This document shows, piece after piece, positions 12,413 to 37,379 of a DNA stretch of 37,379 bases (position 1 is the stretch's first letter; each line of letters begins with the position of its first letter). Source of the DNA: an uncultured Gammaproteobacteria bacterium (GTDB lineage: Bacteria; Pseudomonadota; Gammaproteobacteria; SZUA-229); contig CAJXZZ010000023.1 in assembly GCA_913065105.1 (NCBI GenBank), positions 1 to 37,379 on the forward strand, in the 5' to 3' direction. Made by a program: the position numbers and the translations under genes. Below the pieces are notes generated by a model that saw only the letters and a list, made by a program, of their open reading frames with translations, was not told where the DNA came from and did no database searches.

Positions 12413-12434
12413 ATTTGGTTTTATTGACTTAGAG

Positions 12435-12468
12435 AGCCGGGCTGATTTATCAGCCCGGCTTTTTTATT
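12435..12468 (+). terminator. Rho-independent terminator of the FKBP gene
   Basis: AGCCGGGCTGA and TCAGCCCGGCT form a perfect stem around TTTA, followed by six T residues. Confidence 0.9.
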
Positions 12469-12512
12469 GGGTGTAATTTTTACTGGTTATTTTGGTTGGT
12501 ATTTACTTGGGT

Positions 12513-13098
12513 TTTTTTGTTAGGCTTTGCGGTATTCGCACCGCGGGCGAGGTACTCTTTTGCTACAGCCCAAAAGAGTACCCAGAAAAGGCCGTCCCGA
12601 TCCGTTCGCCCCGAGAAAAGCACTCGGGGTGCCTGAATCCACAGCCGTTGCCTACGAGCACACCTTGATGCGCCATCCGGGCGCACAAGGCTAAATTCGC
12701 CTTCCCTGGCGAATTTGCTCTACCAACGGCAGCAGATTCAGCAAACGAAATGGAAATCTAAACAAGGACTCGCAAAAATAAGCCAAAAGCCCAAAAGAAT
12801 AAACAAAAGTATTTTCGAAATGAGATGGTTGGCTTTAGTGCCGTTTTTATCTTGTGACTTTCCTCCCACCTCCACAAGCCATCGAGGCAGTGCAGTTATC
12901 ATGGGCTTTCTGTGAAAACTGTCTGAGCGTTTTTTGCGAGTTTTTTCACGGCATGATTACTGTGCTGCCTCGGTGGGAACCCCTGTGTTTTTTACAGGGG
13001 CGTAGTGGTAGTGGCGGCTTTTTTTGGTTACTTTTTTTAGCTGTAGAAAAAAAGTGACTCGCCCGCGGTGCGAGAACCGCAATGCCTAACGAAAAGTA
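12513..13098. mobile_element. Hairpin-array dispersed repeat element with inverted ends, copy 1
   Basis: A gene-free unit of about 590 bases with inverted ends. The 33 nt at 12519-12551 match the reverse complement of 13058-13090 at 30 positions, and both ends continue into a hairpin with a CTACAGCC or CTACAGCT loop. Inside lies a row of strong hairpins: 12551-12582, 12608-12630, 12663-12690, 12693-12716, the pair 12884-12903 with 12952-12971, and 12980-13000. No transposase or credible ORF is present. Open frames through it look like spurious translations of the repeat. A related copy occupies the right edge of the window. It may be a non-autonomous mobile element or a structured-RNA repeat; I do not know its mover. 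Confidence 0.65.
12551..12582. repeat. Conserved-loop hairpin, left end of element copy 1
   Basis: GGTACTCTTTTG and CAAAAGAGTACC pair perfectly for 12 bp around the loop CTACAGCC. The inverted right-end counterpart (13028-13059) uses a different stem (ACTTTTTTT/AAAAAAAGT) with loop CTACAGCT, and the copy at 37006-37039 uses loop CAACAGCC. Confidence 0.75.
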
Positions 13099-13172
13099 AA
13101 TCGTAAATGCTAAACACCAAGCACCAAAGTACAGTCAAAAGTTAAGGAGAATAAAACAATAGTAAAAACTAT

Positions 13173-36971: not shown

Positions 36972-37379
36972 TGTGGGTAGTGTGGGTAGTCGCACCCACG
37001 GGCGAGTCACTCTTTTGCCAACAGCCGCAAAAGAGTAACCAGACTAAATTCGTTGGGAACGAATTTGAACAGCTGTTTTATAGCTGGCCCGCAGGGCAAA
37101 ACACAGGAAGTGTTTTGTAACAATGCCGCCCTAAACAGCCTGCCCAAAAAACGGGCAAGCCTCAACTTCCAACTTTGCCTACGCGTCGGTCGGATCAGCC
37201 GTCCGGGCTGACCAACCTCAATTCGCCGTCCTTGGCGAATTGCCGCTAACAAAGTCGAAAGCTGAGGCAGGTTGTACGAGGGGAGTCAAGTCAAAAACGA
37301 AGCCAAAAACAAAAGAAAGAAAAAACCAAAGGAAAACACACAAATCTCACAAAATGGTTTATCGCTGTCCACCAGCGCG
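36972..37379. mobile_element. Hairpin-array dispersed repeat element, copy 2 (running off the window)
   Basis: This gene-free stretch begins with two tandem GTGTGGGTA units (36971-36988) and then repeats the left end of copy 1: CGCACC...GGGCGAG at 36991-37005 and a hairpin with loop CAACAGCC (37006-37039). A row of hairpins follows: AAATTCGTT/AACGAATTT at 37046-37066, AAAACAC/GTGTTTT near 37098-37116, TGCCC/GGGCA near 37141-37157, CAGCC/GGCTG at 37196-37210, and AATTCGCC/GGCGAATT at 37219-37241. The frame through it resembles other repeat-derived false ORFs. The distal end is not in the window. Confidence 0.6.

Follow-up and report, generated by a model that had tools for sequence, protein, structure and literature searches.

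A dispersed two-armed hairpin locus of Gammaproteobacteria whose arms may act as RNA, probably through CsrA binding

Why should two gene-free stretches 24 kb apart on one contig of an uncultured gammaproteobacterium (SZUA-229 lineage) carry the same row of strong hairpins, with stems that differ and loops that do not? An initial annotation of the window, i.e., the whole 37,379-nucleotide stretch analysed (contig CAJXZZ010000023.1), had read them, from the letters only, as copies of a dispersed hairpin array kept for its fold. A genome-wide census, i.e., searches across the own and related genome assemblies, shows that they belong to a dispersed non-coding element with two inverted arms. We propose, at even confidence, that the arms act as RNA, probably via binding of CsrA.

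Two inverted arms around a variable centre

The complete copy (window 12501-13108) belongs to an element of ~0.5-0.6 kb and has convergent neighbours, an FKBP-type gene on one side and a bioD-like gene on the other, whereas the second copy (36982-37379) consists of a single arm, the other arm lying past the contig end. Neither stretch has an ORF of at least 100 aa, in agreement with the gene-free assignment. The shared head CGCACC..GGGCGAG was located at 12537-12551 and 36991-37006, and the TTCGCC/GGCGAA hairpin was likewise found twice (12696-12713 and 37222-37239). Three instances of the first hairpin, which had been noted to keep both pairing and loop, have near-perfect stems (12551-12582, CTACAGCC; 13027-13058 on the minus strand, CTACAGCT; 37006-37039, CAACAGCC). 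The inverted ends are indeed identical at 30/33 positions (12519-12551 vs. 13058-13090) and are part of longer arms of 106 nt, which are complementary at 82/106 positions (77%). The full copy matched 41 stretches in its own genome, the best second copy at E=1e-108, and the further copies on which the initial annotation depended were found in number in the own genome and its relatives. The initial annotation had missed three features: a part already known to Rfam, hairpins H0 and H1 at the ends of both inverted arms, and a single structured strand in each arm.

From its left end, the complete copy begins with a terminal inverted segment of type I, ATTTAC..N..TTTT..TTAGGC.TTG (12501-12528, plus strand; mirrored at 13081-13108), followed by the terminal hairpin H0 (GCGGTATTCGCACCGC; 12529-12544, minus strand), whose pairs are exchanged among copies and whose pattern occurs 20 times in the own genome vs. 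0 times for the reversed control. The first hairpin H1, with loop CTACAGCC (12551-12582, minus strand), has a perfect 12-bp stem, and its structured strand is the outward one. A CCCCGAG..CTCGGGG hairpin with a T-rich loop on the outward strand (12609-12629, minus strand) returns in the arms examined, where its loop varies. Module A (12618-12756, minus strand) consists of two GGA-loop hairpins within a long covarying stem, the second of which (GCGCCCGGATGGCGC) lies at 12670-12684 and the first of which, TTCGCC AGGGAA GGCGAA, lies at 12696-12713, both on the minus strand. The arms are separated by a variable A/T-rich centre (12757-12876), which is poorly conserved in orthologous alignments. The right arm opens with module B (12878-12977, plus strand), a long covarying stem with the core CATGGGCTTTCTG..CTGTCTGAGCG..GCGAGTT..CAGCATG, and continues with a CCCCTGTG..ACAGGGG hairpin whose outward-strand loop is T-rich (12980-13000, plus strand) and which is present, in compensatory variants, in many right arms. 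The right H1, whose loop is CTACAGCT as read inward (13027-13058, plus strand), is assigned from the inverted repeat and the family statistics; it is followed by the right H0 (13065-13080, plus strand; pattern match at 13065-13082, minus strand) and, in the alignment of ends, by the mirrored terminal segment (13081-13108, minus strand). The contig-end copy contains an H0 variant with exchanged pairs (GTGGGTAGTCGCACCCAC; 36982-36999, minus strand), an H1 of the form GTCACTCTTTTGC CAACAGCC GCAAAAGAGTAAC with loop CAACAGCC (37006-37039, minus strand), a module C with the GGA-loop hairpins AAATTCGTTGGGAACGAATTT and CAAAACACAGGAAGTGTTTTG, GGA being on the inward strand (37047-37117, plus strand), and a module A (37149-37278, minus strand).

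In the own genome and in those of relatives, the two end units of the full element are inverted and stand ~370-620 nt apart, mostly 470-590, each running through outer segment, H0, GGCGAG and an H1 with a CTACAGC-type loop. The outer segment is either type I (ATTTAC..TTTT..TTAGGCATTG) or type II (TATCTGA..TTATTCTAATAGATTG), and ATTTAC, TTTT and TTAGGCATTG are conserved in an alignment of 64 element ends. Inside the end units stands module A or module B, paired as A+B, B+B or A+A, and only sometimes module C, a GGA-loop hairpin set of ~75-80 nt that is present in one species and cleanly absent from another at the same locus. Two further observations concern the variety of forms. A GGA-hairpin module of ~72 nt sits in the H1 loop of one of two near-identical copies, L072 (G000:C92) or L067 (G000:C7), and is missing from the other; and L076 (G000:C1:138500-139200) is a near-perfect palindrome of ~62 bp in which two type I ends flank one H0 hairpin, i.e., either the element at its smallest or what remains of one.

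Conservation of the fold and the selected strand

Module A of both window copies matches the full-length Rfam model RF01731 (TwoAYGGAY) on the minus strand, with 53.1 bits for the complete copy and 45.1 bits for the contig-end copy at a gathering cut-off of 43 bits, whereas no Rfam family matched modules B and C. The TwoAYGGAY RNA motif was reportedly described by Weinberg et al. in 2010. Module A agrees with it in having two adjacent GGA-loop hairpins in a longer stem; however, Rfam covers module A only and lists it as a candidate cis-regulatory element of unknown function, whereas here it is one exchangeable module of an element that also has H0/H1 ends and another type of module.

The stem changes are overwhelmingly compensatory, as expected by the initial annotation. 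In the module A alignment, which comprises 31 sequences after three of the initial 34 (L037, L041 and L053) were dropped because they contain another GGA-hairpin array and did not align correctly, 27/37 pairs changed on both sides, including 14/17 pairs of the outer stem, and 96.2% of cells are paired. None of 500 shuffles equalled the real alignment on any of five measures, and slid controls were far lower (31-42% paired). For module B, 37 instances were collected and 36 aligned, with compensatory change in 23/39 pairs. The 42 distinct H1 hairpins collected (about 40 stem forms) retain near-complete pairing in nearly all cases, and the pair exchanges GCGGG/CCCGC, GCGAG/CTCGC and GTGGG/CCCAC were seen in H0. 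Orthologous loci, e.g., that on the own contig C3 compared with its counterpart in genome G004, repeat the pattern, in which stems are altered on both sides and loops are unchanged. The covariation in modules A, B and H1 thus bears out the earlier suggestion of a structure kept for its fold.

A G-U pair on one strand reads as A-C on the opposite strand, and the two strands of each arm can therefore be told apart. On the outward strand, G-U outnumbers A-C by 47 to 9 in module A (19 to 6 when counted by column), by 82 to 11 in module B with two near-fixed columns left out, and by 38 to 5 in H1; p-values for this asymmetry are only indicative, because related sequences are counted as independent. 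The third pair of H1, read inward, is C-A in 42 copies, T-A in 32 and T-G in 0. With G-U frequent and A-C mismatches few, the outward strand is the selected single strand, and modules A, B and H1 concur on this in each arm. Selection on a single-strand fold is thus well supported, and the simplest reading is that the outward strand acts as RNA, single-stranded DNA being the alternative source of the asymmetry.

GGA loops and candidate binding of CsrA

The loops of module A suggest a partner for such an RNA. The hexaloop of its first hairpin fits the CsrA/RsmA consensus ANGGAN in 31/31 sequences, and the loop of its second contains GGA in 31/31. A SELEX study of CsrA reported the consensus RUACARGGAUGU; GGA stood in the loop of a hairpin, in most cases a hexaloop, and most ligands had at most 4 contiguous pairs (PMC7652899). 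Unlike in most of these ligands, the GGA loops here top long stable stems. CsrA binding of TwoAYGGAY has already been proposed on the basis of motif matches (PMC4333381). Loops matching the CsrA criterion ANGGAN / ACANGGAUGU occur both as the first loop of module A and as ACAGGAYGU-type loops in distant families. Since the Rfam model itself favours GGA loops, only hairpins outside the RF01731 matches give an unbiased count; among these, in distant families, GGA/TCC loops were found in 14/21 hairpins vs. 11/48 of the flanking ones (p = 9e-4, Fisher test). A hand count in those families placed GGA on the outward strand in 26/26 clear GGA-loop hairpins.

CsrA (PF02599) is encoded in 12/12 carrier genomes checked, a result that tests little because csrA is so common in Gammaproteobacteria. 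Several copies of module C carry their GGA loops on the inward strand. Module B has no GGA loop, and CsrA therefore cannot account for the whole element. A scan for sigma-70-type promoters in the element and adjoining DNA gave 0 matches. Like the CsrA-titrating sRNAs CsrB, CsrC, RsmY and RsmZ, the element presents several ANGGAN-type GGA loops on one strand. However, its GGA sites are few in each arm, its stems are long and no promoter was recognised, and it occurs as many dispersed copies in inverted pairs with an extra module without GGA.

We therefore favour, as a proposal, an arm unit that would read 5'-[module A (TwoAYGGAY) or module B]-H1-H0-3' on the outward strand and would be selected for single-strand folding of that strand, most likely as RNA. 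Because the arms are inverted and strand-specific, any transcript crossing the locus would carry one arm in working orientation, so that transcription from either neighbouring gene, or from the centre, would yield one arm of the correct strand. As paired structures with GGA loops, the hairpins are most likely CsrA/RsmA binding sites, in which case RNA of the arm would titrate CsrA or bring it to read-through 3' ends.

Genomic sites, competing explanations and significance

RF01731 has 14 matches in the own genome and is found in 15/40 relatives; in a wider draw of the class it occurs in 23/370 genomes and 21/274 genera, often in several copies. Where carriers of the close form are named, they are MAGs of unclassified Gammaproteobacteria (or Proteobacteria). 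The two-arm architecture recurs in distant gammaproteobacterial families, where inverted H1 pairs stand ~460-550 nt apart around the array and the H1 stems are quite different (GTCGATTTTCTTG, GCCCCTTTTCTTG, GTGACTTTTTGT). Flank comparison shows sites common to species (C3/G004/HyVt-525, L047/L051, L036/L142, L033/L139 and L126/L140, and in another family L173/L198), with flanks ~75-80% identical between species. At the fkp-bioD site, G000, G002, G004 and G010 have the element, G005 has a single H0-like hairpin left, and most other genomes have no element.

The element could instead be a non-autonomous MITE- or REPIN-like element, moved in trans as folded single-stranded DNA, with the hairpins as recognition structures and the outward strand as the one that is cut, an explanation that we consider unlikely. 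Its small non-coding size, terminal inverted repeats, scattered copies and patchy distribution in the class would fit such an element, as would the clean presence or absence of module C in otherwise matching elements, and the strand asymmetry suits single-stranded DNA as well as RNA. However, CsrA-like GGA loops are unexpected in a recombination site, and many sites are kept between species. It is short, non-coding and present in several copies with terminal inverted repeats, as a MITE would be, whereas neither consistent target-site duplications nor a related autonomous transposon, in a search covering Y1 transposases only, was found: the mean longest repeat flanking 14 elements was 3.6 vs. 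3.1 +/- 0.33 in shuffled pairs. While the element resembles QMITE1 and QMITE2 of Coxiella burnetii and other MITEs (Correia elements) in being short and non-coding with inverted ends and tens of copies, it differs from the QMITEs in its lack of a consistent direct repeat, its strong fold conservation and its sites kept between species. QMITEs are an origin of transcribed sRNAs and are accompanied by direct repeats and, in the case of QMITE1, by promoters; no conserved regulatory fold is proposed in the accessible part of that report (PMC5896051).

REPINs, like the element, are inverted pairs of palindromic units with strand polarity; however, its arms contain many hairpins and exceed those units several-fold in length, and a RAYT was adjacent in 0/30 loci tested. 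Mobility of the RAYT/REPIN kind was rejected on this ground, since no element unit was present in flanks of up to ~1.5 kb at 30 Y1_Tnp loci in 12 carriers. A plasmid or phage origin was likewise rejected, since neither the 72,556 plasmid records nor the 50,697 records from phages contained a copy. Integron attC sites have the boxes RYYYAAC...GTTRRRY and form cassette arrays. The element shares with them folded palindromic sites and a GTTAGGC-like end box, and its own genome contains two integron-type integrases scoring above the NCBIfam TIGR02249 cut-off (G000:C59:1599-2540 and G000:C10:454-1398). However, its box order is GTTAGGC...GCCTAAC, opposite to GCCTAAC...GTTAGGC, the integrases are not adjacent to elements, and no attC or cassette array was recognised near them in a regex scan, and the integron reading was rejected. 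The mobility implied by the initial annotation is thus weaker than its structural claim: copies are dispersed, but no consistent target-site duplication, linked RAYT or plasmid or phage copy was found, and many sites are common to species. Such sharing, with differing module content, argues against a fast-moving element, although not against one whose copies spread slowly or in the past, and shared sites may also reflect repeated insertion at favoured junctions.

A bidirectional terminator or insulator between convergent genes, in which the hairpins would halt read-through and antisense transcription, is improbable. Convergent neighbours are enriched (9/17 full elements with both neighbours known vs. 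18/85 gaps overall, p = 0.013), the window copy itself lies between the FKBP-type and bioD-like genes, and a terminator-like CTCGC..GCGAG with a T-run reads inward at both ends, with 3 terminator-like sites at element ends vs. 1.3 +/- 1.4 in shuffles. However, 8/17 sites are not convergent, 2 of these being divergent, the conserved GGA loops and module B core would not be required, and the selected strand is outward whereas convergent transcripts first meet the inward strand. Moreover, a GC-rich terminator-like hairpin with a T-run stands right after the FKBP-type gene (about 12433-12466), and the element is therefore probably unneeded as its terminator.

That inverted arms enclose and spread cargo genes is very hard to credit: three own-genome inverted arm pairs hold 0.9-1.7 kb inserts, one of them, L062, within a 9-nt direct repeat that is itself not convincing as a target-site duplication, but most paired arms enclose ~370-620 nt without genes, the composites contain no integrase, and the L122 arms around parC/parE-like housekeeping genes look accidental.

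The inserts themselves hold two small ORFs beside a gene for a T6SS amidase of the Tae4 type (L061, G000:C64:5400-8200), a YciI-like gene with a 3-methyladenine glycosylase gene (L062, C10:13500-15900), and no clear gene (L063, C7:30800-33000). They have in common a leader of ~150 nt (..GTGATAGATGGATGTCCGCCTATCAC..CCACCTAATACACTGTTAGGGC), part of which precedes an unrelated gene without an arm at L116 (G000:C44:22320-22364), like a cassette boundary; since the leader also occurs away from arms, the cargo may be a separate insertion. A cargo-transposon reading of the three composites was rejected, as it is not general and the leader is found elsewhere. A separate palindrome, GTAGGTCCGATTA..TAATCGGACCTAC, which looks like another dispersed repeat, recurs in the inserts (L062:1763-1800; L063:1174-1212 and 1335-1370).

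Returning to arms that act as RNA, we advance the broader form of the proposal more tentatively, as somewhat doubtful: a class-wide two-armed family that would give CsrA-binding RNA whichever way it is transcribed, with copies serving as distributed decoys or 3'-end regulators long kept at the same junctions. A literature search that took in few subscription journals turned up no description of the two-arm architecture, of module B or of the strand evidence; in the accessible portions of that literature, the name RF01731 or TwoAYGGAY is rare and no tested function was found.

TwoAYGGAY, long an orphan motif in Rfam, is now one part of a complete modular two-armed element, and it becomes open to testing because the sense strand is defined, a second module (B) covaries and the range extends across the class. 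CsrA binding by the arms would mean that many Gammaproteobacteria have, in their Csr network, dispersed decoys beyond the few known CsrB-type sRNAs; without such binding, the element is still a strongly selected fold kept at gene junctions across species. With loops that resemble CsrA binding sites, it may amount to a layer of RNA regulation that is widespread and has been overlooked.
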